Assembly: GCF_012932145.1 (NCBI RefSeq)
Contig: NZ_MWOK01000003.1
Location: 124,001 to 188,000, forward strand
From: Acidovorax sp. SRB_14
GTDB taxonomy: Bacteria > Pseudomonadota > Gammaproteobacteria > Burkholderiales > Burkholderiaceae_C
DNA length: 64,000 bases
Direction of reading: 5' to 3'
The notes beneath the pieces are model-generated. The model did not search any database, was not told where the DNA came from, and was given only the letters and a program-made list of their open reading frames with translations. The position numbers and the translations under genes were made by a program. This document shows, piece after piece, positions 39,058-57,080 of this stretch (the first letter of the stretch is position 1; each line of letters starts with the position of its first letter).

Positions 39058-41070
39058 TTACTTGTAGAGCAGCTCCGGCAGCCAAAGCCCGATGGCTGGG
39101 AACATGTACAGCAGGACGATGGCGATGATCTGGATGCCCATGAACGGCATCATGCCCGCAAAGATCTGGTTGAGCGTCACATGCTTGGGCGCCACGCCTT
39201 TGAGGTAGAAGGCCGACATCGCCACAGGCGGACTCAGGAACGCGGTCTGCAGGTTCAGCGCCACCAACAGGCCGAAGAACAGCGGGTCCACCCCAAAGTT
39301 GTCCAGCAACGGAATGAAGATCGGCATGAAAATGACGATGATTTCTGTCCACTCGAGTGGCCAGCCCAGCACGAAGATGATCACCTGGGTCAGCACCAGA
39401 AACTCGACCTTGGTCAGGTTCATCCCAAGCACCCATTGCTCGACCAGCGCCTGTCCGCCCAGCAGCGCAAAGGCCGCCGAGAAGATGGCAGAACCGACAA
39501 AGAGCCAGCACACCATGGCCGAGGTCTTGGCGGTGAGAAAGACCGACTCTTTCACCATGCTCAGGTTGAGCTGACGGTAGGCCGCCGCAAGGATGAAGCC
39601 TCCGAAGGCACCCACCGCAGCCGCCTCCGTCGGCGTCGCCAGGCCAAAGACGATCGAGCCCAGCACGGTCAAGATCATGGCGAGGAGCGGGAAGAACGAG
39701 GCCAGCAGCATCTTGAAGATTTCGAGCCGCGCGAAACTGAGCAGTGCGTAGTAGACGGCCAGCACGACGGCACCCACCGCCAGGCCGATCCAGAAGCTGG
39801 CCGATGCCGGTTGGGTCGTTGCCACAGGCGGGCTGACGGGGGTCGCCGGCGCTGCGGCTGCGGCCGTTGCCGCAGGCTCTACACCTGTGGCTGCCGCCAG
39901 AGCGCCATCGCCGGGCTGCGCCTGACCGCCCTCCGCCGGCGGCTCAGCCAGTCCGCCCTCCGAAGGTGGCTCAGTCAGCCCGCCCTCGGACGGTGGCTCC
40001 GCCAGCCCACCGCTTTCACCCGGCGGCTCCTGTACGCCGCCATAGTCGGCATTGGACGGCGCCTCGCTGCCGATCTGCTGCAGTCCGGAACTCGCTGGCA
40101 GCGGCTCGATGCTGGTAGCGGTGCGATAGCTGAGTGCGGCGATGACGATGAAAAGCAGCAAGGGCAGCAGCGCGAGGGACAGCTGGCGAAGCAGGTAGGC
40201 TCCGGGAACTTCTGTGTTGCGCCGGCCCTTCAGCGCGCCGATCAGTGCAGGCACGGCATGGCGTGCGCCTGTGGCGCCGACGGCGATCAGTTGCGCCGGC
40301 AACGGCACCTTGCGCTGCTCGGCGCTGAGCGGAGGCGCCAGGCGGGGCTTGATTTTCGCGACCAGGATGACATACAGGATGTACAAGCCGGCCAGCATCA
40401 ATCCGGGGAAAAACGCACCGGCGTACAGCTGGACCACCGAGACGCCCGCCGTTGCGCCGTAGACGATCAACAGCACCGAAGGCGGGATCAGAATGCCCAG
40501 GCAACCACCGGCCGTGATGACGCCCGCCGACACCCGCACGTCATAGCCGGCGCGCAGCATCGGCGGCAAGGCCAGCAGTCCCATCAGCGTGACGACCGCA
40601 CCAACGATGCCTGTGGCGGTCGCGAACAGGGCGCAGGTCACCAGGGTCGCGACGGCGAGCGAGCCGGGGACGCGTGCGAGCATGAGGTGCAAGCTGGTGA
40701 ACAGCTTTTCGATCAGGTTGGCGCGCTCGACCAGATAGCCCATGAAGACGAACAACGGGATGGCGATCAGCACGTCGCTGGCCATCACCGAGAAAGCGCG
40801 CTGCACCATCAGGTCGAGCGTCTGGTGCATCGCGCCCTCAATCGTCTGGCCGCCTGAATGGTATGCAAAAAACGCGAACAGTATCCCCATCCCCATCAGC
40901 GTGAATGCGGTGGGGAAACCCAGCATGATGGCCACCACCACCAGCGAGAGCATCAGCAGGCCGATGTGGCCGTTGGTGAGCACCGGGGCGCTGATCAGCA
41001 TGTACAGGGCCCCGGCGATGATGATTGCCATCAGCCCAAAGCCGAACCACAGTTCCTTGCGGATCATCAT
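39058..41070 (-). CDS. dctM: DctM, TRAP transporter large permease with long internal insertion
   Basis: Large membrane subunit of a TRAP transporter, 670 aa; the family normally has about 430. The first 245 residues contain typical DctM segments (MMIRKELWFGFGLMAII... through GAVVTLMGLLALPPMLRAGYDVRVSAG), and residues about 460-670 contain GIVFGLATPTEAAAVGAFG and the C-terminal bundle. Between these, about residues 255-455, is an insertion with two extra membrane segments (LALLPLLLFIVIAAL and FWIGLAVGAVVLAVYY) flanking a Pro/Glu/Gly-rich stretch with GGLAEPPSE repeats. The start overlaps the dctQ stop. Confidence 0.9.
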   Translation of the reverse strand: MMIRKELWFGFGLMAIIIAGALYMLISAPVLTNGHIGLLMLSLVVVAIMLGFPTAFTLMGMGILFAFFAYHSGGQTIEGAMHQTLDLMVQRAFSVMASDVLIAIPLFVFMGYLVERANLIEKLFTSLHLMLARVPGSLAVATLVTCALFATATGIVGAVVTLMGLLALPPMLRAGYDVRVSAGVITAGGCLGILIPPSVLLIVYGATAGVSVVQLYAGAFFPGLMLAGLYILYVILVAKIKPRLAPPLSAEQRKVPLPAQLIAVGATGARHAVPALIGALKGRRNTEVPGAYLLRQLSLALLPLLLFIVIAALSYRTATSIEPLPASSGLQQIGSEAPSNADYGGVQEPPGESGGLAEPPSEGGLTEPPSEGGLAEPPAEGGQAQPGDGALAAATGVEPAATAAAAAPATPVSPPVATTQPASASFWIGLAVGAVVLAVYYALLSFARLEIFKMLLASFFPLLAMILTVLGSIVFGLATPTEAAAVGAFGGFILAAAYRQLNLSMVKESVFLTAKTSAMVCWLFVGSAIFSAAFALLGGQALVEQWVLGMNLTKVEFLVLTQVIIFVLGWPLEWTEIIVIFMPIFIPLLDNFGVDPLFFGLLVALNLQTAFLSPPVAMSAFYLKGVAPKHVTLNQIFAGMMPFMGIQIIAIVLLYMFPAIGLWLPELLYK
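39928..40027 (-). repeat. Tandem 27-bp repeat inside dctM encoding GGLxEPPxE units
   Basis: Three adjacent 9-residue units (GGLAEPPSE, GGLTEPPSE, GGLAEPPAE), with degenerate flanks (GGVQEPPGE-like before, GGQAQPGDG after). The repeats form a hydrophilic, probably disordered linker between the two additional membrane segments. Copy number could vary between strains. Confidence 0.75.
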
Positions 41071-41696
41071 TACGCACCCTCCTGGCGTTGTGCGAGCGGT
41101 ACGTATTTAGCGACGTCGTTCACGTTGGCGTCTTTGGCGTGCACCATTTCCTTGAGCTTGTCGACGTCCACTTCTTCGACGTCTTCCTCGCGGGCGGGCC
41201 AGACGCCATCGCGCAGGCACAGGACGCAACGCACGATCTCGACCAGACCCTGCAGCAGCAGCACAGCGCCGGCCACGGGAATCACGAACTTAAACGGGTA
41301 GACCGGGATCGGGTCGGCATTGAAGGTCTGCTCACGCATGGCCAGCGACTCGTGGGCGTAGGTCCATCCAGCCCAGGTGAGCGCCACGATGCCGGGCAGG
41401 AAGAACACGATATAGAGCGCCAGATCCAGGGTGGCCTGCGTGCGCGGCCGGAAGAAGCCGTACAGCACGTCGCCGCGCACATGGCCGCCCTTGGCCAGCG
41501 TGTACGCGCCTGCACACATGAACAGGGTTCCGTACAGCATGATCTGTGCATCCAGCACCCACGCATGGGGTTGGTTCAGAACATAGCGGGAGAACACTTC
41601 CGCCGTGATAAGAAAGGTGAGCCCGACCACGGTCCAGGCCGTGGCCTTGCCGAACCAGGTGGAAAAGCTGTCCACAGCCAAAAGAAATCGTTGCAT
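41070..41696 (-). CDS. dctQ: DctQ, TRAP transporter small permease
   Basis: Four-helix small membrane subunit, 208 aa. The hydrophobic segments start about residues 16, 55, 90 and 140 (TAWTVVGLTFLITAEVFSRY, IMLYGTLFMCAGAYTL, and others). The start at 41696 (MQRFLLAVDSF) is chosen because AAGGA lies 7 bp upstream; an ATG at 41717 sits directly after a terminator hairpin. A long acidic C-terminal tail (EEDVEEVDVDKL) is unusual for the family. It overlaps dctM (TAATG). Confidence 0.88.
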   Translation of the reverse strand: MQRFLLAVDSFSTWFGKATAWTVVGLTFLITAEVFSRYVLNQPHAWVLDAQIMLYGTLFMCAGAYTLAKGGHVRGDVLYGFFRPRTQATLDLALYIVFFLPGIVALTWAGWTYAHESLAMREQTFNADPIPVYPFKFVIPVAGAVLLLQGLVEIVRCVLCLRDGVWPAREEDVEEVDVDKLKEMVHAKDANVNDVAKYVPLAQRQEGA

Positions 41697-41717
41697 CAAA
41701 AATCCTTGGTCGAACAT

Positions 41718-41747
41718 AAAAAAAGGCGCCGAACATCCGGCGCCTTT
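41718..41747 (-). terminator. Intra-operon terminator or attenuator between dctP and dctQ
   Basis: AAAGGCGCCG (41722-41731) pairs perfectly with CGGCGCCTTT (41738-41747) over a 6-nt loop, followed on the minus strand by seven T residues. It lies after dctP and just before dctQ, so it would reduce transcription of the membrane subunits relative to the binding protein. Confidence 0.8.
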
Positions 41748-41762
41748 CCCTCCTAATGCGGC

Positions 41763-42884
41763 TCAGCTCTTCTTGGCCGGTGCGTTGCGGCCGAAGTAGT
41801 GGTTGTAGGCCATCTTGAAGTCGACCGAGTAGTCGTTCTGCCACTGGCCGGCGCGCTGTGCAAAGGCCTTCTGCGAATCGAGCACTTTCTGGAACAGCGG
41901 GTTCTCCTTGGCCTTCTTTTCAATGGTCCTGTCCCAGGCGGCGAGCTGGTCGCGCAGGATCGAATCGGGCGTCTTGTAGAACTTCACACCGGCCTTTTTC
42001 AGCTCGATGTAGTCCAGCGAGTTGCGCTCGATGGCCTTCCAGCTCATGTCGGCGCTGGCCGCTTGCACGCCATAGTCGATGATGGCTTTGAGTTCCGCCG
42101 GCAACGCCTTGTACTTGGCGCCGTTGAACAGGATTTCGAACTGCTCGCCGCTCTGGTGAAAGCTTTGCAGCATGCAGTTCTTGGCCACGTCCGGAAAGCC
42201 GAGCACGCGGTCGCTGGAGGCGTTGTTGAACTCGGCAGCGTCAATCAGGCCACGGTCCAGCGCCGGGACAATCTCGCCGCCGGGCAGTGGATTCACCGCC
42301 ACCCCCATGTCGGTGAACACATCGACGGCGAGACCCACGGTGCGGAACTTCAGGCCCTTCATGTCGGAAGACTTGGCGACCGGCTTCTTGAACCAGCCCA
42401 GCGGCTGGGTGGGCATGGGGCCGTAGAGGTAGGACACGACGTCCATGTTCAGGCTCTTGTAGATTTCATCAAGCAGCGCCTTGCCGCCGCCGTAGTTGTG
42501 CCAGGCGAGCACCATGTTCGGGTCCATGCCGTAGGCGGGGCCGGACCCCCACAGCGCCAGGGCGGCGTTTTTCCCGTAGTGGTAGGCCACCACACCGTGA
42601 CCGCCGTCGAGCGTGCCCTTGTTGACCGCTTCAAGCAACTGGAACGCCGGAACCACGGCGCCGGCAGGAAGCACCTCGATCTTCAGGCGCCCGCCGGCCA
42701 TGTCGTTGATCTTCTTGCCAAAATCCTGCGCGTATTCGTGGAAGATGTCCTTGGACGGCCAGGTACTTTGGAAGCGCAGCGTGGTGGTCTGGGCGGTAGC
42801 GACCATGGGTGCCGACATGGCGCCTGCTGCCACGGCGGCACCCTTGAGCAGGCTGCGGCGGCGCGGTGTGTTGCTGTGTGTCAT
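41763..42884 (-). CDS. dctP: DctP, TRAP transporter periplasmic solute-binding protein
   Basis: Solute-binding protein, 373 aa. Its signal MTHSNTPRRRSLLKGAAVAAG is a clear twin-arginine type. The mature domain has ALDRGLIDAAEFNNASSD and conserved residues of the mannitol/chloroaromatic-type DctP group. The KFRTVGLAVDVF arginine and RGLIDAAEFNN segment resemble TakP, which binds alpha-keto acids with sodium. I infer an organic acid ligand, but the exact one cannot be read. A -35/-10 pair (TTGCCG-N17-TTAGAT) precedes it. Confidence 0.9.
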   Translation of the reverse strand: MTHSNTPRRRSLLKGAAVAAGAMSAPMVATAQTTTLRFQSTWPSKDIFHEYAQDFGKKINDMAGGRLKIEVLPAGAVVPAFQLLEAVNKGTLDGGHGVVAYHYGKNAALALWGSGPAYGMDPNMVLAWHNYGGGKALLDEIYKSLNMDVVSYLYGPMPTQPLGWFKKPVAKSSDMKGLKFRTVGLAVDVFTDMGVAVNPLPGGEIVPALDRGLIDAAEFNNASSDRVLGFPDVAKNCMLQSFHQSGEQFEILFNGAKYKALPAELKAIIDYGVQAASADMSWKAIERNSLDYIELKKAGVKFYKTPDSILRDQLAAWDRTIEKKAKENPLFQKVLDSQKAFAQRAGQWQNDYSVDFKMAYNHYFGRNAPAKKS

Positions 42885-48248: not shown

Positions 48249-48637
48249 CACTTGTAGATGGATTGCGGGTCTTTCAAGACCGGTTCGCTGGCCCGCCAAG
48301 CGCCGTCGCGCAGAACGCTGAAGAAGCAGCTGTGGCGCCCCGTATGGCACGCGATGCCCGGCGTGTGGCCTTGCTGCGTGACCAGGAGCAAGACCACGTC
48401 GTTGTCGCAGTCGATGCGGATCTCGTGCACGGTCTGCACGTGGCCCGACTCCTCGCCCTTGAACCACAAGCGCTGGCGCGAGCGGCTGAAATACACGGCG
48501 CGCCCCAGCTCGGCCGTCTTTTGCAGCGCCTCGCGGTCCATCCAGGCGAACATCAGCACGTCTTTCGTGCCTTTTTCCTGAGCGATCACGGGCACCAGCC
48601 CCTGCGCGTCCCACTTCACTTCATTGAGCCAGTTCAT
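48248..48637 (-). CDS. hisI: HisI, phosphoribosyl-AMP cyclohydrolase
   Basis: Third step of histidine biosynthesis, 129 aa. [20 protein letters not shown] begins the protein. [17 protein letters not shown], the metal-binding RIDCDND and the zinc [10 protein letters not shown] cluster are intact. No further his genes occur upstream within the window, so the remaining pathway genes lie elsewhere. The open frame extends 41 codons further upstream without conserved sequence. Confidence 0.95.
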
Positions 48638-48913
48638 GCAGAGGATTGTCGGTGATTTGCGCCGCCGGCACCGGCGTGCATGAACCCTGCCACTTCTGCT
48701 CCTATTGCAGCCAATTAGATGGCAATTTACCGACAATTTGTTGACGTTTGGGGAAAACACTACGTTCGTTCAACCCCTTCGGAAGTACAGTCAGACTGCG
48801 CCAACGCATTGCCTCATCCGCACCCCAATGAACCGCCCTGCCCCCTGGACGACCTCGTCTCGCCTGCGCGAACTGCGTGAGCACACCCGCTCGGCTGCAC
48901 GGCTGTGCATGCC
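48638..48913. other. Divergent spacer between hisI and the peptide ABC transporter operon
   Basis: This 276-bp region has no credible gene. It should contain the promoters of both divergent units. A TTGACG word (48741-48746) and a GACAATT word (48733-48739) on the + strand are possible promoter parts, but spacing does not give a convincing pair. No repeat element copy is present. Confidence 0.4.
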
Positions 48914-50776
48914 ATGAGCACAATTGCGCCCCCAGGCGGCGTGCCGCTGCTTTCCGTGCGCTCGCTGGCGGTGGAGTTCAAAGTGCCTGGCGGGCGCTTT
49001 CGCGCTGTGGACGGGCTGAGCTTTGACGTGCATGCAGGCCGCACGGTCGCCATCGTGGGCGAATCGGGATCGGGCAAGTCGGTCACCTCGCAGGCGATCA
49101 TGCGCCTGACCGACTATTCGGGCGGAGAGATCGTGGACGGCGAGATCCTATTCCACTCGCCGCGCAGCGGCGTCCAAAACCTGCGCACGGCCAGCGACGA
49201 CGCCCTGCGCGCGATCCGCGGCAACGAGATTGCGATGATCTTCCAGGAGCCCATGACATCGCTGAACCCGGTGTTCACGATTGGCAACCAGATCGCCGAG
49301 TCGCTGATCCTGCACCAGGGCCTGAGCGCGGCGGAGGCGCGCCGACACGCCCACGCCCTGCTGCAGAAGGTGCGCCTGCCCGATGCCGAGCGCTTGCTCG
49401 ACACCTACCCGCATGCCCTCTCGGGCGGCATGCGCCAGCGCGCCATGATTGCCATGGCGCTGGCCTGCCAGCCGGCGCTGCTGATTGCCGACGAGCCCAC
49501 GACGGCCCTGGATGTAACCATCCAGGCGCAGATCCTCAACATCATCCGCGAGTTGCAGCGCGATCTGCACACGGCCGTGGTCTTCATCACCCACGACATG
49601 GGCGTGGTCGCACAAATGGCCGACGACGTGGTGGTGATGTGGCGCGGCCGCCAGGTCGAACACGGGCCGGTGGCGCAGATCTTCAATGCGCCCCAGCACC
49701 CCTACACCCGCGCACTGCTCTCAGCCGTGCCACGGCTCGGTGCGCTGCGCGGACAGCCGTTTCCTAAGCGCATGCCGCTCACGGTGCTGGACGGCGACGC
49801 CTTGTGCGAAGTGGGCACCGAGCAGCTGCAGGACACCGTCGACGCCAACGCGCCGCTGCTCACCGTCGACAAGCTCACCACCCGCTTCGACATCGCGCAC
49901 AACCTGTTCGGCCGGGTCACGCACCGCGTGCACGCGGTGGAGGAGGTCAGCTTCGAGATCTACCCGGGCGAAACCCTGGCGCTGGTGGGCGAGTCGGGCA
50001 GCGGCAAGACCACCATCGGCAAGACGCTGCAACAGCTCGTCGCGGCCTCCAGCGGCACCATCCGCTTTGCCGGGCAGGACATTGCGCAACTCGATGCCGC
50101 GGGCCGCATGCGGCTGCGCCAGGACATCCAGTACATCTTCCAGGACCCGTTTGCCTCGCTGGACCCGCGCAAGACCGTGGGCTTCAGCATTGCCGAGCCC
50201 ATCGTCACGCACCGGCTGCTGGCGCGGCCGCAGGACCTGGAGCGGCGCGTTGCCGAGCTGCTCGAGTGCGTGGGCCTCCAACCCGCGCATGCGCACCGCT
50301 ATCCGCACGAGTTTTCGGGCGGCCAGCGCCAGCGTGTCTGCATTGCCCGCGCGCTGGCCTGCAACCCCAAGCTGGTGATTGCCGACGAGTCGGTGTCGGC
50401 GCTCGACGTGTCCATCCAGGCGCAGATCATCGACCTGCTGATGGAATTGCAGGCACAGCGCGGCCTGTCCTACCTGTTCATCACGCACGACATGGCGGTG
50501 GTCGAGAAGATCAGCCACCGCGTCGCGGTGATGTACCTGGGACAGATCGTCGAGATGGGCCGGCGCCAGGACATCTTCGAGAACCCCCAGCACCCCTACA
50601 CGCGCCGGCTGCTGGCGGCCGTGCCCGTGGCGGAGCCGGGCCGCAGCATCGACGCACGGCTGATCGAGGGCGAGATCCCGAGCCCCGTGCGCCGCGTGGG
50701 CCAGGAGCCGCAGATCCTGACACTGGTCGAAACCACGCCGGGCCACCGGGTCGCGCAGCCGGCCCTGCTTTCCTAG
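48914..50776 (+). CDS. Peptide ABC transporter ATP-binding protein with two fused ATPase domains (GsiA-like)
   Basis: Fused dual nucleotide-binding protein, 620 aa, like GsiA. Domain 1 has Walker [12 protein letters not shown] (near residue 42) and signature LSGGMRQR; domain 2 has Walker [12 protein letters not shown] (near residue 361) and signature FSGGQRQR. Both have Walker [14 protein letters not shown] or [13 protein letters not shown]. It powers the permeases at 52396 and 53316. The ATG at 48914 follows a GTG at 48905 that is less likely. Gene order is ATPase, binding protein, permease, permease, peptidase. Confidence 0.93.
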
Positions 50777-50845
50777 ACACCCTGCCCATTCCCCTTTTTG
50801 TGGCTCTGCACCCCGAGAGCCAGTCCTTGCAACCAGGAGACCTCC

Positions 50846-52360
50846 ATGAAGCTGAAAAACTTCTTCGCCACCACCAGCCTGGTGCTTGCCACGCTGGCGG
50901 CGCCTTCCACGCATGCGGCCGGAACGCTCACCGTCGCGCTGCACCAGGACCCCGGCAATTGGGACCCGATCGCCACTTTCCTAGTGGCGTGGGGCGCGGT
51001 GGGCAGCCAGGTGTTTGACGGCCTGATCATGCGCACGCCCGACATGAAGCTGGTGCCCGGCCTGGCCACCAAGTGGGAATTCCTGGACAAGAACACCAAG
51101 CTGCGCTTCACGCTGCGCCAGAACGTGAAATTCCACAACGGCGAGCCTTTCGACGCCGAGGCCGTCAAGTTCACCTTCGACCGCCTGCTGGGCGATGAAG
51201 GCAAGAAAGGCCCGCAGCAGTCCAACTACAACGCCATCGACAAGGTGGTGGTGGTCAACGCGAACACGGTCGATTTCATCCTGAAAAACCCCGACCCCGT
51301 GCTGCTGACCAAACTGGCCGGCTACGGCGCGATGATCGTTCCGCCCAAGTACATCAAGGAAAAGGGCAGCCAGTACTTCGGCATGAACCCCGTGGGCACC
51401 GGTCCGTTCAAGTTCACGGACTACAAGCCCAAGGTGAGCCTCTCGTTCGAGCGCAACGACGCCTATTGGGGCGGCGCGCCCAAGCTGGACCAACTCGTGT
51501 ACCGCTTCATCAGCGAGCCCGCCACGCAGGCGGCCGAGTTGCAGGCCGGCCGCGTGGACGTGGCCAACCAGATCCCGCTGGCGCTGATCGGCACGATCAA
51601 CAAGGACAGCAAGCTGTCCGTGGTCAGCATGGACGGGCCCGTGGCCCTCGCGCTGCGCTACAACACCCAGCGCGGCATCATGAAGAACCCCGAGGTGCGC
51701 AAGGCGTTGACCATGGCCGTGGACCGCGACGCCATCATCAAGACCATTCTGCTGGGCCAGGCCAAGCCGATCGCCAGCTTCCAGGGCGCGCTGTCGTTTG
51801 GCAACGACCCGAACCTCAAACCCTTGCCGTTCAACCCCGCGCAGGCCAAGGCCATGCTGCAAAAGGCCGGGGTCAAGCCCGGCACGCAGATCCAGCTCGA
51901 CTTCCGCGGCCCCGACAGCAACTTCCGCGAAGTGGCGCAGGCCGTTGCCGGCTACCTCGGTGCCGTGGGCATCACGGTGTCGCTCAAGCCTTACGAAACC
52001 AACGTGCTGATCAACGACATCATCCCGAGCGGCAAGACCGGCGAGATGTGGCAGAACCAGTGGGGCGGCTGGACCTTCGACTACGACAACACGGCCTACG
52101 CCATGTACTACACCAAGCAGCGCTGGAACCCGTTTGACGACGATCCCAAGCTCAATGCCCTGCTGCACACCCAGCGCAACACCTGGGACCAGGACGCGCG
52201 CAAGGCCACGCTGCAAGAGATTGCCCGCTATGTCGCCAGCCAGGCGCTGGAGATGCCGCTCTACAGCCTCAACACCGTCTACGGCGTGAACAAGCGCGCC
52301 AAGAACCTCGGCTTGCCGGGCGACGGGCGCTTCCGCTTCGTCGACGCCACCGTCGAATGA
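50846..52360 (+). CDS. Peptide ABC transporter periplasmic substrate-binding protein
   Basis: Family 5 (DppA/OppA-type) solute-binding protein, 504 aa. The signal peptide MKLKNFFATTSLVLATLAAPSTHAAG ends near residue 24. The hallmark family segment LRQNVKFHNGEPFDAEAVKFTFDRLL (near 80-110) is present. An AGGAGACC ribosome-binding site precedes the ATG. The ligand may be a dipeptide, oligopeptide or glutathione-like compound; sequence alone does not decide. Confidence 0.92.
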   Translation: MKLKNFFATTSLVLATLAAPSTHAAGTLTVALHQDPGNWDPIATFLVAWGAVGSQVFDGLIMRTPDMKLVPGLATKWEFLDKNTKLRFTLRQNVKFHNGEPFDAEAVKFTFDRLLGDEGKKGPQQSNYNAIDKVVVVNANTVDFILKNPDPVLLTKLAGYGAMIVPPKYIKEKGSQYFGMNPVGTGPFKFTDYKPKVSLSFERNDAYWGGAPKLDQLVYRFISEPATQAAELQAGRVDVANQIPLALIGTINKDSKLSVVSMDGPVALALRYNTQRGIMKNPEVRKALTMAVDRDAIIKTILLGQAKPIASFQGALSFGNDPNLKPLPFNPAQAKAMLQKAGVKPGTQIQLDFRGPDSNFREVAQAVAGYLGAVGITVSLKPYETNVLINDIIPSGKTGEMWQNQWGGWTFDYDNTAYAMYYTKQRWNPFDDDPKLNALLHTQRNTWDQDARKATLQEIARYVASQALEMPLYSLNTVYGVNKRAKNLGLPGDGRFRFVDATVE

Positions 52361-52395
52361 ACGCTTGAGCCCTCTGCCTTGAAACGACCGATACC

Positions 52396-53319
52396 ATGAG
52401 CGGTTTCCTCTTCAAGCGGCTGCTGCAGGCGATCTTCGTAGTGCTGGTGGTGTCGCTGTTCGTCTCATATGCCGTGCGCCTGTCGGGCGATCCGGCCGTC
52501 ATGCTGAGCCAGGGCGCGGGCAGCGTGACCGAGGAAGACCTGCAGAACATCCGCCAGGGCCTGGGGCTGGACCGGCCCTTCCTGGTGCAGTACGCGGAGT
52601 TCGTGCGCGGCGCCGTCACCGGCGACTTCGGCCGCAGCTTCCTGGGCGGTACGCCCGTGAGCCGCCTGATCGGCGACGCGCTGCCCGCCACGCTGGCGCT
52701 GGCGCTGGTGTCGCTGCTGGTGTCGGTGGCGGTGTCGGTGCCGCTGGGCGTCCAGGCCGCGGTGCACCAGGGCAAGGGGGTGGACCAGTTCATCCGCATC
52801 GTCTCGCTGGTCGGCCTGTCGTTTCCGAACTTCTGGCTGGCCATCATGCTGGTGCTGCTGCTGTCCATCACGTTCCCGCTGCTGCCGCCCTCGGGCTGGG
52901 ACGGGCCGGCGAGCCTCATCATGCCGGCGCTGACCATGGCCATCATCCTCTCGGCGACCAACGTGCGCCTGGTGCGCACCTCCATGCTCGAGACGCTGTC
53001 GGCGCAGTACATCATGGTGGCGCGCAGCAAAGGCCTCAAGGACCGCGTGGTGCTCTACAAGCACGCGCTGCGCAACTGCGCCATTCCGCTCATCACCTAC
53101 ATCGGCCTGCAGTTCGGCAACCTGATCGGCGGCATCGTGGTGGTCGAGAAAGTCTTCAACTGGCCCGGCCTGGGCACGCTGGCCTTCGACGCCATTGCCA
53201 GCCGCGACTACCCCGTGCTGCAAGGCACCGTGACGCTCCTGTCGGTCATGATCGTGTCGGCCAACCTGCTGGTCGACATCGCCTATGGCCTGGTCGACCC
53301 CCGCATCCGCAGCAAATGA
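52396..53319 (+). CDS. Peptide ABC transporter permease (DppB/GsiC type)
   Basis: Inner-membrane permease, 307 aa, with six predicted segments (first at FKRLLQAIFVVLVVSLFVSYAVRL). The long periplasmic loop after segment 1 and the EAA-like loop (ETLSAQYIMVARSKGLKDRVVLYKHALRN, near residues 200-228) are typical. It overlaps the next permease by four bases (ATGA). Confidence 0.93.
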   Translation: MSGFLFKRLLQAIFVVLVVSLFVSYAVRLSGDPAVMLSQGAGSVTEEDLQNIRQGLGLDRPFLVQYAEFVRGAVTGDFGRSFLGGTPVSRLIGDALPATLALALVSLLVSVAVSVPLGVQAAVHQGKGVDQFIRIVSLVGLSFPNFWLAIMLVLLLSITFPLLPPSGWDGPASLIMPALTMAIILSATNVRLVRTSMLETLSAQYIMVARSKGLKDRVVLYKHALRNCAIPLITYIGLQFGNLIGGIVVVEKVFNWPGLGTLAFDAIASRDYPVLQGTVTLLSVMIVSANLLVDIAYGLVDPRIRSK

Positions 53320-54179
53320 ACGCATCCGCCTCCGTCCCTTCGACCCCGCAAGCGCGCACCTTCCAGTGGCGTTCGCTCGAATTCATCCTCGGCGCGGTGC
53401 TCACGGGCGCCATGCTGGCGCTGGTGCTGACCTCGGTCTGGATCTTCCCCGACCGTGGCTCGGCCATGGACCTGACCGCGCGCCTCACGGCCCCGTTCAC
53501 CACCTGGGCGCACCCGCTGGGCACCGACCCGCTGGGCCGCGACGTGCTGGCGCGCGTGCTGGTGGGCGGACGCATCTCGCTGTGGGTGGGCTTTGCCTCC
53601 GTGGCGGGGGCTTCGCTCATCGGCATCGCGATCGGCCTGGTGGCGGGCTACTACCGGGGCTTCTGGGACATGTTCCTGATGCGCTGCGTGGACGTGCAGC
53701 TGGCCCTGCCCTTCATCCTAGTGGCGCTGACCTTCATCTCCATCCTCGGCGGCGGCCTGGGCAACATCATCCTGTTCATGATCATTTCGCAATGGGTGCA
53801 GTACGCGCGCCTGGTGCGCGGCATGGTGCTGTCGGTGCGCGAGCGCGAATATGTGCAGGCGGCGCGCTCGTTCGGTGTGCGCGACCTGGCCATGGTGCGC
53901 CACCACATCCTGCCCAACGTGATCGGGCCGGTCATCATCCTGGTCATGCTCAACGTGGCCAACAACATCCTGCTCGAGAGCAGCCTGACCTTCCTCGGCC
54001 TGGGTGTGGACCCTCTGATCCCCAGCTGGGGCGGCATGCTGGCCGACGGCCGCACCTACATGCAGACCGCGTGGTGGGTCAGCGTCTTCCCCGGCGTGGC
54101 GATCATGCTCACGGTGCTGGGCCTGAACCTGCTCGGCGACTGGCTGCGCGACCGCATCGACCCCACCGGAAAGCTCTGA
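53316..54179 (+). CDS. Peptide ABC transporter permease (DppC/GsiD type)
   Basis: Second permease, 287 aa, with an N-terminal segment (LEFILGAVLTGAMLALVLTSVWIF), GTDPLGRDVLARVLVGGRISL and the EAA-type loop REREYVQAARSFGVRDLAMVRHHILPNV. It pairs with the preceding permease. The TGA stop is followed after one base by the next gene's ATG, so the M14-like peptidase is cotranslated. Confidence 0.93.
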   Translation: MNASASVPSTPQARTFQWRSLEFILGAVLTGAMLALVLTSVWIFPDRGSAMDLTARLTAPFTTWAHPLGTDPLGRDVLARVLVGGRISLWVGFASVAGASLIGIAIGLVAGYYRGFWDMFLMRCVDVQLALPFILVALTFISILGGGLGNIILFMIISQWVQYARLVRGMVLSVREREYVQAARSFGVRDLAMVRHHILPNVIGPVIILVMLNVANNILLESSLTFLGLGVDPLIPSWGGMLADGRTYMQTAWWVSVFPGVAIMLTVLGLNLLGDWLRDRIDPTGKL

Positions 54180-54180
54180 C

Positions 54181-55956
54181 ATGGACACCCCCGTGCTGCT
54201 CGACCTGCAGGTGCCGCGCACGCTCGACGCCTGGGTGCGCCAGTTCGAGGCGCCCCCGTGGCGCGGCGCCAGCGTCGAAGGCTGGCTGTTCGAGGGCCCG
54301 GACGCGCGCCGTGCGGCCGAGCAGCGCCTGCGGGCAGCCGGCGTGCGGGCGCGCCTGCGCAGCGCCTACAAGCCGCTGGTCCACAGCTTCCTCGAAGACG
54401 TAGACTGTGCCCGCCTGGTCGCCGTGCACCTGACCTACCCCGCGCCCGCGCACGCCGCCCCGCGCCGCTTTCTGCTCGAGGCCTACCCGCTCGCCGGCCT
54501 GCTGCCGGCCGGCTGCACGCTGCAGTGCACGCCCGGCGGCGAAGACCTGCATTACCAGCTGGACCTTACGTACGGCAGCGGCGAGCGCGTGGAGGCGCGC
54601 GTGTTCGCCCCCAACCGCGTGCACACCGACCACCTGGGCAGCACGCAGCTCTCGCCCACCGGCTGGCTGCGCACCGGCGCACCCCAGGGTGGTGGCGCGG
54701 CCCTCGACGGCCCCCAGGCCACCGATTGCGAGCAGCTCTTCGACCATGCCGTGCGCACCGTGCAGCAGCACCCATGGCCGGTGCAGGAGCCCTATTTCGA
54801 GCGGCTGGACCTGCGCGTGGACCTGCCGGGCATCGAGCTGCCGCTGGCCGTGGACCATGAATGCATCAGCCTGGCCGAGGCGCTGCACGAAGACCTGTAT
54901 TTCTCGCTGCTCGAAGTGTTCCAGCGCCACTCGGGCCGGGCCGCCAGCGACCGCCGCCTGCAGCCCGGCCAGATCGTGCCCGACGTGCGCCACGGCGCGC
55001 CCGCCGTGCGCATTGCGCTGCAGCCGTTCGCGGCGCAGGCGCAGGACCGGCTGGGCCCGCCGCCCGAGCCACTGCCGGGCACGCCGCTGGAGCGGCTGGC
55101 GCACCCGGCGCACCCGCAGCGGATCGCTGCCGAGATGGCGCGGCTGCCGGGCCTGCGCTTTGCCGCGGCCTCGCGCCAGGGCCGCGCGGTGCTCGGCCTG
55201 TACCACCGCGGCCCGGGCGCTGCCGTGTTCATCAGCGGCGGCCAGCACGCCAACGAAACCTCGGGCGTGGTCGGTGCGCTGCGCGCGGCGCAGCAGCTGC
55301 AGTCCCCAGGCAGCGCGAACTTTGCGCTGATCGCGCTCGAAAACCCCGACGGCTACGCGCTGCACCGCGAGCTGTGCGTGCAGCACCCGCGGCACATGCA
55401 GCATGCGGCGCGCTACAGCGCGCTGGGCGACGACATCGAATACCGCGAGCAGGCGCCGCTGTACGAGCGCGCTGCGCGCGAGCAGGCACTGGCGCTGTCG
55501 GGCGCGCAGCTCCATGTCAACCTGCATGGCTACCCGGCCCATGAATGGACGCGGCCGCTCACCGGCTATGTGCCGCGCGGCTTTGGCCTGTGGACGATTC
55601 CCAAGGGTTTCTTTCTGATCCTGCGCCACCGGCCGGGCTGGCAGGCCGAGGGGCGCGCCCTGCTCGAACAGGTCTGCGCCGCCTTGGCCCGGGTGCCGGG
55701 CCTGTCCGCCTACAACGCGCGGCAGATGGCGCTGTACGCGCAGCATGCGGGCGAGCTGCCGTTCGAGCAGATCCAGGGATTTGCCTGCACGCAGAGCGAA
55801 AACCCGCTGCCCGGGCCGCCGGTCACGCTGATCACCGAGTTTCCCGACGAGACCGTGGCGGACGGCGATTTCCGTTTTGCGCACACCGTGCAGTGCGCGG
55901 CCGTGCTGGCCGCCGTGCAGGCCTGGCAGGGCCTGGCGCGGCCTGCGGCGGGCTGA
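54181..55956 (+). CDS. M14-like zinc metallopeptidase of the peptide transporter operon
   Basis: Protein of 591 aa. The C-terminal half resembles M14 carboxypeptidases/amidases: the zinc motif HANE (H356, E359) in SGGQHANETSG, an NPDGY segment, LHVNLHGYPAHEW (H445, H449, H454; one is probably the third zinc ligand), and a candidate catalytic E553 in LITEFPDET. The N-terminal 300 residues are an unrecognised domain rich in Ala, Arg and Leu. No signal peptide is visible, so it acts in the cytoplasm on imported peptides. By analogy with MpaA it could process murein or gamma-linked peptides, but this is inference. Confidence 0.75.
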   Translation: MDTPVLLDLQVPRTLDAWVRQFEAPPWRGASVEGWLFEGPDARRAAEQRLRAAGVRARLRSAYKPLVHSFLEDVDCARLVAVHLTYPAPAHAAPRRFLLEAYPLAGLLPAGCTLQCTPGGEDLHYQLDLTYGSGERVEARVFAPNRVHTDHLGSTQLSPTGWLRTGAPQGGGAALDGPQATDCEQLFDHAVRTVQQHPWPVQEPYFERLDLRVDLPGIELPLAVDHECISLAEALHEDLYFSLLEVFQRHSGRAASDRRLQPGQIVPDVRHGAPAVRIALQPFAAQAQDRLGPPPEPLPGTPLERLAHPAHPQRIAAEMARLPGLRFAAASRQGRAVLGLYHRGPGAAVFISGGQHANETSGVVGALRAAQQLQSPGSANFALIALENPDGYALHRELCVQHPRHMQHAARYSALGDDIEYREQAPLYERAAREQALALSGAQLHVNLHGYPAHEWTRPLTGYVPRGFGLWTIPKGFFLILRHRPGWQAEGRALLEQVCAALARVPGLSAYNARQMALYAQHAGELPFEQIQGFACTQSENPLPGPPVTLITEFPDETVADGDFRFAHTVQCAAVLAAVQAWQGLARPAAG

Positions 55957-55971
55957 CAGGCCGGCGCAAAA

Positions 55972-56033
55972 CTATCAAAAACATAGCTGCTGGCGCTTGC
56001 TGCACAAGCGCCAGAGCCCTATTTCACTGAAAT
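55972..56033 (+). repeat. Dispersed double-hairpin element at the peptidase/sppA junction (best-preserved copy)
   Basis: CTAT (55972-55975) pairs with ATAG (55983-55986). CTGGCGCTTG (55990-55999) pairs perfectly with CAAGCGCCAG (56005-56014), then GAGCCCTATTTCACTGAAA. It fills the convergent junction. Confidence 0.85.
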
Positions 56034-56051
56034 TCCTGCGTGCAGCTGCGT

Positions 56052-57080
56052 TCAGCGCAGCGCGGGCGCGCGCTGCAGCGTTTGCAGCGCACCGGCACCG
56101 ACGGCGGCGCCAAAGCGCTTGGCCAGGCGCTCGGCGACGTTGTCGCGGCGCGTGTAGTCGATGACGTCTTCGGCCTTCACGACCTCGCGGGCCACATAGT
56201 CGAGGCTGCCCAGCCGGTCCGCCAGCCCCATGTCGACCGCCTGCTGGCCGGTCCAGAACAGGCCGCTGAAGGTCTCGGGCGTGGGCTTGAGCCGCTCGCC
56301 GCGGCCGGCCTTGACGGCGGCAATGAACTGCGCGTGGATCTGGTCGAGCATGGCCTGCGCGTACTCGCGCTGCCTTTCGGTCTGCGGGCTGAACGGGTCG
56401 AGGAAGCCCTTGTTCTCGCCCGCGGTCAACAGGCGCCGCTCCACGCCCAGCTTTTCCATGGTGCCGGTGAAACCGAAGCCGTCCATGAGCACGCCGATGC
56501 TGCCGACAATGCTGGCCTTGTCGACAAAGATGTCGTCGGCCGCCGCTGCGATGTAGTAGGCAGCCGAGGCACAGGTTTCTTCCACCACGGCATACAGCGG
56601 CTTCTTGTGCTTGGCCTTGAGGCGCACGATCTCGTCGTAGATGATGCCGGCCTGCACCGGGCTGCCGCCCGGCGAGTTGATCAGCAGCACCACGGCCTTC
56701 GAGCCGTCGTCCTCGAAGGCGCTGCGCATGGAAGCGATGACGAATTCGGCGCTGGCCTCGGCGCCGGCGGAAATTTCGCCCTTGATGTCGACCACCGCCG
56801 TGTGCGGGCCGCTCTTGGCCGCCGTGGCCATGTCGCGCGACAGGAAGGCCCAGGCGATGAAGACGAAAAACGCCAGCCAGGCCAGGCGCGTGAAGGTGCG
56901 CCAGCGGCGCGCCGCGCGCTGCTCGGCCAGCGTGGCCAGGGCCAGCTTTTCGAGCACGCCGCGCTCCCAACCCGGCGCCCCGGGCTCGACTTTAGCTCCT
57001 GAAACAGGAGCTGCTTGCGCCCACAGGTCGGGCATTTCAGGCGGATTTTTATCGGATCCGCTGGAGGTGGGCTCGGTCAT
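56052..57080 (-). CDS. sppA: SppA-like signal peptide peptidase (S49 family)
   Basis: Membrane-anchored S49 serine protease, 342 aa, short form. The anchor lies near residues 46-66 (LAWLAFFVFIAWAFL). The nucleophile is in CASAAYYIAAAADDIF (near residue 166), and the general base Lys is in GSIGVLMDGFGFTGTMEKLGV. The N-terminal 35 residues before the anchor contain a sequence (56994-57012) resembling the dispersed hairpin element. It lies one base after the Rieske gene. Confidence 0.92.
   Translation of the reverse strand: MTEPTSSGSDKNPPEMPDLWAQAAPVSGAKVEPGAPGWERGVLEKLALATLAEQRAARRWRTFTRLAWLAFFVFIAWAFLSRDMATAAKSGPHTAVVDIKGEISAGAEASAEFVIASMRSAFEDDGSKAVVLLINSPGGSPVQAGIIYDEIVRLKAKHKKPLYAVVEETCASAAYYIAAAADDIFVDKASIVGSIGVLMDGFGFTGTMEKLGVERRLLTAGENKGFLDPFSPQTERQREYAQAMLDQIHAQFIAAVKAGRGERLKPTPETFSGLFWTGQQAVDMGLADRLGSLDYVAREVVKAEDVIDYTRRDNVAERLAKRFGAAVGAGALQTLQRAPALR
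56994..57012 (-). repeat. Hairpin with repeat-family similarity inside the sppA coding region
   Basis: AGCTCCTG (56994-57001) pairs perfectly with CAGGAGCT (57005-57012), followed by GCTTGCGCCC as in family hairpin 2. It encodes part of the N-terminal tail of SppA. Membership in the family is uncertain. Confidence 0.35.

Follow-up and report, generated by a model that had tools for sequence, protein, structure and literature searches.

Glutamine at the N-terminus of a peptide cyclises spontaneously, and pyroglutamyl (pGlu) peptides resist ordinary aminopeptidases and tend to accumulate in protein-rich settings. For free pyroglutamate (5-oxoproline), the closest described uptake system is that of Bordetella pertussis, whose TRAP receptors DctP6 and DctP7 have been solved with 5-oxoproline (KD of 0.3 uM for DctP7) and are encoded near a eukaryotic-type 5-oxoprolinase; according to the accessible portion of that report, B. 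pertussis could not be shown to use 5-oxoproline (PMC13274462). On the side of peptide import, residues R383 and D436 of the receptor DppA hold the carboxyl and amino ends of the dipeptide, as described in the available part of PMC12136057.

The window, by which we mean the whole 64,000-nucleotide stretch of Acidovorax DNA analysed here, carries an operon in which an ATPase, a substrate-binding protein (SBP), two permeases and, as its last gene, an M14-type metallohydrolase follow one another on one strand (Table 1). The initial annotation had placed the M14 gene one base after the permease stop and regarded it as co-translated with the importer, and this holds: the stop codon of permease 2 (TGA, 54177-54179) is separated from the M14 ATG by the single base 54180, and a GGAAAG at 54168-54173, ending seven bases 5' of that ATG, is a plausible ribosome site. 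An antisense open reading frame (54109-55884) overlaps the M14 frame in this GC-rich DNA; homologues conserve the sense frame. The downstream gene (56052-57080) is convergent to M14, and a promoter and terminator scan of 48600-56150 returned no signal exceeding shuffles. By Pfam, the importer has everything expected of the peptide/nickel type, namely SBP_bac_5, two BPD_transp_1 and an oligo_HPY ATPase. The best NCBIfam model for the ATPase is GsiA, at 850.5 bits under its cut-off of 1077, and since the GsiA, NikA, GsiB, DppA and Opp2B equivalogs all match the importer genes below their cut-offs, we assign it to the peptide/nickel class without a named identity; some half-models of the ATPase (NikD, NikE) exceed theirs. 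The window also holds a second TRAP transporter at 39058-42884, which is probably a different system because its DctP (41763-42884, minus strand) is just 25% identical to the pyroglutamate-type receptor.

Table 1. Features of the importer-M14 operon, in window coordinates.
Feature	Position	Strand	Basis or remark
Operator-like sequence	48725..48763	+	near-palindrome ACCGACA-ATT-TGTTGAC then GTTTGGGGAAAACACTAC
Fused two-domain ABC ATPase, GsiA-like	48914..50776	+	Pfam ABC_tran and oligo_HPY; earliest possible start GTG 48905
SBP_bac_5 substrate-binding protein	50846..52360	+	Pfam SBP_bac_5, E 1.5e-90; signal peptide by inspection
ABC permease 1, DppB/GsiC/NikB type	52396..53319	+	Pfam BPD_transp_1
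ABC permease 2, DppC/GsiD type	53316..54179	+	Pfam BPD_transp_1; 4-base overlap with permease 1
M14-type metallohydrolase, proposed pyroglutamyl-peptide hydrolase	54181..55956	+	ATG, 591-aa open reading frame, homologues, context
N-terminal domain, residues 1-296, alpha/beta	54181..55068	+	AlphaFold2 (AF2) alone; without clear PDB relative
C-terminal M14 catalytic domain, residues 302-587	55084..55941	+	VIA Z 21.4; conserved active-site residues

To place the M14 protein, which has one match in its own genome, we scanned genome contigs and obtained 496 relatives, of which the best 80 were analysed; counts over these loci (L numbers; genomes carry G numbers) lean toward close relatives because the 80 are the best-scoring. 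Locus counts derive from tblastn, as gene calling misses M14 in 9 of the 80 loci, and flanks extend to at most 8 kb, some being ended by contig ends. Locus L053, whose match contains a stop near its end, was excluded from the 80-row alignment. An AlphaFold2 model built on this alignment is confident and has two domains (pLDDT 90.8, pTM 0.90), and its residues 302-587 match M14 carboxypeptidases over 227 aligned residues with an rmsd of 2.5-2.6, so that the carboxypeptidase fold is found for the catalytic domain. The zinc-hydrolase signature that had been read from the sequence (HxxE, a later histidine and a C-terminal glutamate) corresponds to H356/E359, H449 and E553, and each of the four is identical in 80 of 80 rows; the proposal had been made to depend on the conservation of H356, E359 and E553. 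H449 is assigned as zinc ligand from order and motif, not from coordinates, and H445 is equally invariant, as are R411, D418, Y451, H454, E455, W456, R458, Y463, R482 and D556. Pfam PF00246 scores 18.8 bits on the window protein, under the curated cut-off of 21.6, and Peptidase_M14 matches 65 of the 80 rows at E <= 0.01. No NCBIfam model matches the window protein at E <= 1. As modelled, the window protein is thus a divergent M14-fold protein. Membership in the AstE/AspA acylases was considered and rejected: AstE_AspA_cat (PF24827) gives 15 bits against a cut-off of 25, with weak matches in 29 of the 80 rows at E <= 0.01.

The active site probably recognises its substrate differently from a classical carboxypeptidase. 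Positions 420-422 are presumably where the Asn144-Arg145 clamp of carboxypeptidase A would be expected, and they hold no invariant arginine: position 422 is R in 59 rows, G in 14 and D in 7. R411, R458 and R482 are invariant, but lie away from the expected place of the carboxylate clamp.

The N-terminal domain, which had been called unfamiliar at about 300 residues, has no clear relative. Folded alone, residues 1-296 give a pLDDT of 94.2 and a pTM of 0.90, yet neither Pfam nor NCBIfam matches this part at E <= 1, and Foldseek finds no counterpart in the PDB at E <= 0.001; in VIA, which essentially covers residues 63-160, the best Z is 6.2, for an FtsZ row. Cyclic amide hydrolases of the Toblerone fold fill the first five Foldseek rows, though none has an E better than 0.004 or a TM above 0.19. 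Their VIA score is Z 6.1, over 85-89 residues, below the FtsZ row; we took them as noise. By inspection the M14 protein has no hydrophobic N-terminal leader, in agreement with the initial annotation, and it is probably cytosolic.

Linkage to the transporter recurs elsewhere, as that annotation had anticipated, though not in all loci. Orthologous SBP and/or permease genes adjoin M14 on the same strand in 46 of the best 80 loci of 496, under 17 labels taken from record titles that range from Polaromonas to Microvirga, Brucella and Azospirillum, in both alpha- and betaproteobacteria; we conclude that the link is old and widespread but not universal. One record titled Mycobacterium sp. KBS0706 (L094) has an M14 cluster like those of Inquilinus (L081, L086), and its organism label may be wrong. 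In a quick tree of 73 rows, made after removal of L053 and of 27 loci that are near-duplicates (17 from Microvirga), the window falls beside two Polaromonas loci, L037, which holds all three modules, and L041, a short contig with OPLAH; support is 89 for the fork with L041 and 96 for the six-row set. At least 12 changes of the oxoprolinase label occur on this tree, on which labels may be wrong for loci with short flanks, and PxpA-linked rows stand in three separate places.

The recurrent neighbours of M14 point to pyroglutamate. Among the best 80 of 496 loci, 27 hold a fused OPLAH-type oxoprolinase and 20 a DctP more than 55% identical to that of a Polaromonas cluster (one or the other in 30). 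The Polaromonas DctP matches PDB entries 2pfz (E 2.6e-126) and 2pfy (E 5.3e-86), which we take to be the B. pertussis DctP6 and DctP7 pyroglutamate receptors. OPLAH adjoins M14 or its importer in both proteobacterial classes: it stands divergently next to M14 in three genomes of the window's family (G010, G072, G136), and Phyllobacterium, Ensifer and the Brucella group carry it upstream of the importer. In Ketogulonicigenium, Sinorhizobium meliloti AK83, Rhizobium etli and genome G807, the place of OPLAH is occupied by PxpABC, which is non-homologous to it; the order in G807 is ABC, M14, PxpA, PxpB, PxpC, contiguous, and the Ketogulonicigenium PxpA scores 361 bits with its NCBIfam subfamily model against a cut-off of 226. 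PxpA occurs in none of the 80 loci; beside M14 it was seen just in plasmid records and one further genome. Matches to M14 occur in 47 plasmid records, and of the 11 examined 5 have OPLAH or PxpA in the stretch (L119, L120, L121, L122, L127). OPLAH is present in 3 of 9 family loci with flanks (L013, L014, L015); 9 further family loci hold PxpA in one case (L143) and OPLAH in none. As to the activity of the OPLAH-type chain, NCBIfam returns no 5-oxoprolinase model, and the own-genome chain has as its closest PDB match a 1288-residue protein deposited as N-methylhydantoinase; since the NCBIfam matches are weak ones to caprolactamase and acetophenone carboxylase, we infer the lactam substrate from context.

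Two of the plasmid loci show further detail. In S. meliloti AK83 (L120:3395-9906), PxpABC lies between AstE/AspA-like and DUF1989 genes, followed by M14. The R. etli plasmid (L127, 9956-19537) holds a decaying cluster: an in-frame stop interrupts M14, and the AccC-like gene and PxpCB have frame changes, beside an open PxpA and a DUF1989 gene.

These neighbours also bear on the suggestion, made initially, of an MpaA-like recycling of murein tripeptides. The M14 fold and a cytosolic location would suit such an amidase, but the protein matches no NCBIfam model at E <= 1 and carries an extra N-terminal domain, and its recurrent neighbours encode 5-oxoprolinases and a TRAP receptor of the pyroglutamate type; we find this reading unsupported and very unlikely.

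In the window's own genome, the corresponding genes lie on another contig (C39), where OPLAH (66548-70171) and DctP (71014-71970, 74% identical) lie on either side of a winged-helix regulator (Pfam HTH_27); a search of this genome for PxpA found none. The site before the ABC genes and the C39 intergenic region between regulator and DctP have 22 of 27 bases in common, a value reached by 0 of 400 shuffles. A 19-mer pattern of this operator-like sequence has a single match at up to 3 mismatches in the 64-kb window. Across the 3.85-Mb genome it has two perfect matches (window and C39), which are perfect by construction since the pattern was drawn from both, and one more at three mismatches; the reversed control gives one match genome-wide. 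Independent support comes from other loci, in which the 19-mer precedes the ABC operon (Polaromonas L037-L039 and L049) or the TRAP genes (L047, L048, L049 and L063). The sequence is not general, being found in 10 of 42 loci scanned. The HTH_27 regulator may act on both operator-like sites. We regard it as likely that the M14 operon belongs to a pyroglutamate salvage regulon.

An HTH_27 regulator of about 176 aa, as in L137 (10268-10798, minus strand), travels with the OPLAH, ABC-M14 and TRAP modules. Homologues occur for instance in L037-L044, L047-L050, L063, L119, L143 and L145 and in G807 and G285, with two copies each in L047, L048 and L049. A second palindrome directly follows the operator-like one on its 3' side in L063 (near 10506), where it reads TAGGTG-AAT-CACCTA, and in L047 (near 10474); at sites other than L063 it is less perfect.

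For comparison we examined the known pyroglutamyl peptidase family C15 (PF01470), present in 63 of 150 genomes drawn from the window's family. In 11 of these 63 an OPLAH of the same type is located on the same strand about 3 kb away or less (G007, G011, G034, G036, G053, G066, G078, G118, G127, G139, G143), and in G801 C15 adjoins PxpA; a family with the known activity of releasing 5-oxoproline from peptides thus has the neighbour that accompanies M14 elsewhere. The gap between the C15 and OPLAH matches is 14-44 bases in 6 of the 11. Across the draw, C15 is present in 1 of 10 genomes with M14 and 62 of 140 without (Fisher p 0.03 one-sided, 0.045 two-sided, with genomes treated as independent and kinship uncorrected). 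Over all 20 M14-bearing genomes tested, C15 was found in 2 and not found in 18 (the M14 match of G751 is partial). All 10 M14-bearing genomes of the draw hold OPLAH, PxpA or both; this agrees with the reading but carries little weight, since OPLAH-family genes occur in 107 of the 150; of the 10 other M14-bearing genomes, 9 have PxpA, G675 being the one without.

We propose the following pathway. The ABC importer would bring short peptides into the cell, where the cytosolic M14-fold zinc amidohydrolase would split pGlu-X into X and 5-oxoproline. OPLAH in this genome, or PxpABC in some others, would then act as the 5-oxoprolinase and open the lactam to glutamate at the expense of ATP, and a DctP6/7-like TRAP transporter would take up free pyroglutamate. 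In the own genome the system would be split into two halves that share the operator-like sequence, with OPLAH, regulator and TRAP genes on C39 and importer and M14 in the window. Because its relatives often stand beside genes for the uptake and opening of pyroglutamate, M14 probably frees pyroglutamate from imported peptides, with pGlu-X as the predicted substrate; the general idea of import and cleavage of one peptide class, already present in the initial annotation, is supported. That M14 is a pyroglutamyl-peptide hydrolase non-homologous to C15, feeding a 5-oxoproline salvage regulon, is a reading from sequence and context to which we give an even chance. The wider claim, that there is a new metal-dependent class of bacterial pyroglutamyl peptidases, made of M14 with a hitherto undescribed N-terminal specificity domain, which replaces the cysteine peptidase Pcp in a dedicated import-cleave-open pathway for pGlu-blocked peptides, with either of two unrelated 5-oxoprolinases, in alpha- and betaproteobacteria, we advance more tentatively, as possible.

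The binding protein of the importer argues in part the other way. A binder of pGlu-X would be expected to have lost Asp408 of DppA (D436 of the precursor), but the window SBP retains Asp, and Arg, at the DppA D436 and R383 positions. All 20 aligned orthologues have the Asp motif, and 19 of them the Arg (Ile in D. deserti); at the Asp position NikA has Ala and E. coli GsiB has Ser. The column was read from a BLASTP alignment and the GGWT-x-D motif, the MAFFT column being offset by two. As pGlu-X has no free amino end, the retained Asp counts against pGlu-X as ligand; the lactam NH of pGlu could bond to it, which is speculation. The GGWT-x-D motif is absent from the two unrelated SBPs that adjoin M14 in S. 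americanum and V. paradoxus.

The retained pair suits a broader scavenging, in which importer and M14 handle ordinary di- and tripeptides and have regulator and neighbourhood in common with the 5-oxoproline genes just because both nutrients arise where protein breaks down. So does the company M14 keeps in some lineages: in Microvirga, 19 of 21 loci have an M29 aminopeptidase gene upstream of ABC-M14 (e.g. L088:1287-2552; Pfam on L088, tblastn for the 18 others), none of the 21 having an oxoprolinase in reach, and the D. deserti locus holds an S33-type peptidase-like hydrolase. Moreover, 21 of the 80 loci, including Bordetella, Variovorax, Achromobacter and Acidovorax relatives, lack every probed partner within the flank, and in S. 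americanum and V. paradoxus M14 adjoins different peptide ABC systems. Scavenging leaves unexplained why two unrelated 5-oxoprolinases occur in the same place and why C15 sits beside OPLAH in 11 genomes. We consider it unlikely, and keep it at that level because of the Asp/Arg pair, the Microvirga M29 genes and the D. deserti hydrolase.

Nothing encountered in these analyses, which were directed at other questions, points to peptide antibiotics, a further possibility named initially. Use of gamma-glutamyl peptides or glutathione, another possibility raised initially, would have a Gsi-like importer take up gamma-Glu-X, M14 trim it and a cyclotransferase release 5-oxoproline. The ATPase is most like GsiA, and the available text of PMC13274462 gives 5-oxoproline as a product of the gamma-glutamyl cycle too. 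Against this, the SBP is 26% identical to E. coli GsiB and has Asp in place of its Ser, and no cyclotransferase is named in the annotated neighbourhood stretches inspected. Gamma-linked substrates are possible but less likely, since direct hydrolysis of gamma-Glu-X gives glutamate, not 5-oxoproline, and needs no 5-oxoprolinase; this reading is decidedly improbable.

If the pyroglutamyl-peptide reading is true, many soil, water and plant-associated proteobacteria have a dedicated route for pGlu-blocked peptides, which would include a pyroglutamyl peptidase unrelated to those known, in a role known so far from unrelated enzymes. A conserved protein annotated just as M14 metallopeptidase or hypothetical would also gain a function, as would its new N-terminal domain and a family of importers. 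Among the titles, abstract beginnings and listed matches of our literature search, in which few subscription journals are represented, none links M14 to 5-oxoproline or pGlu-peptides; the co-mention of oxoprolinase and peptidase M14 among the matches listed is a nematode transcriptome.

Compared with known systems, the window protein has the catalytic fold and the HxxE...H...E residues in common with the animal M14 carboxypeptidases A and B, with VIA Z 19.0-21.4 over 219-242 residues for the best 50 rows (a few of them bacterial); carboxypeptidase A has the Asn144-Arg145 carboxylate clamp, to which the window family seems to have no invariant arginine counterpart. REP34 of Francisella tularensis (PDB 4oko) is the top match both of the model by Foldseek (E 2.1e-9) and among PDB sequences by profile (E 1.1e-5); it shares a W-x-I-P-x-G-F stretch with the window protein at 14-15% identity, but its chains of about 290 residues lack an N-terminal domain of this kind. 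The importer has the ABC gene content and the SBP_bac_5 receptor of E. coli DppABCDF and GsiABCD, with an ATPase fused as in GsiA and an SBP that shows the Asp/Arg pair of DppA at 26% identity to it; unlike both, it has M14 as its final gene. With the TRAP system of DctP6 and DctP7 in B. pertussis, the C39 module and the Polaromonas cluster have the DctP family and the OPLAH-type neighbour in common, whereas M14 and the ABC importer are additions, unmentioned in the accessible portion of PMC13274462. Finally, pyroglutamyl peptidase I (Pcp, C15) belongs to a different family and has about 200 aa, against 591 aa in the window protein, which has no PF01470 match at E <= 1; we propose the latter as an analogue and not a C15 member, one that would share with Pcp its role and does share the OPLAH/PxpA neighbourhood.
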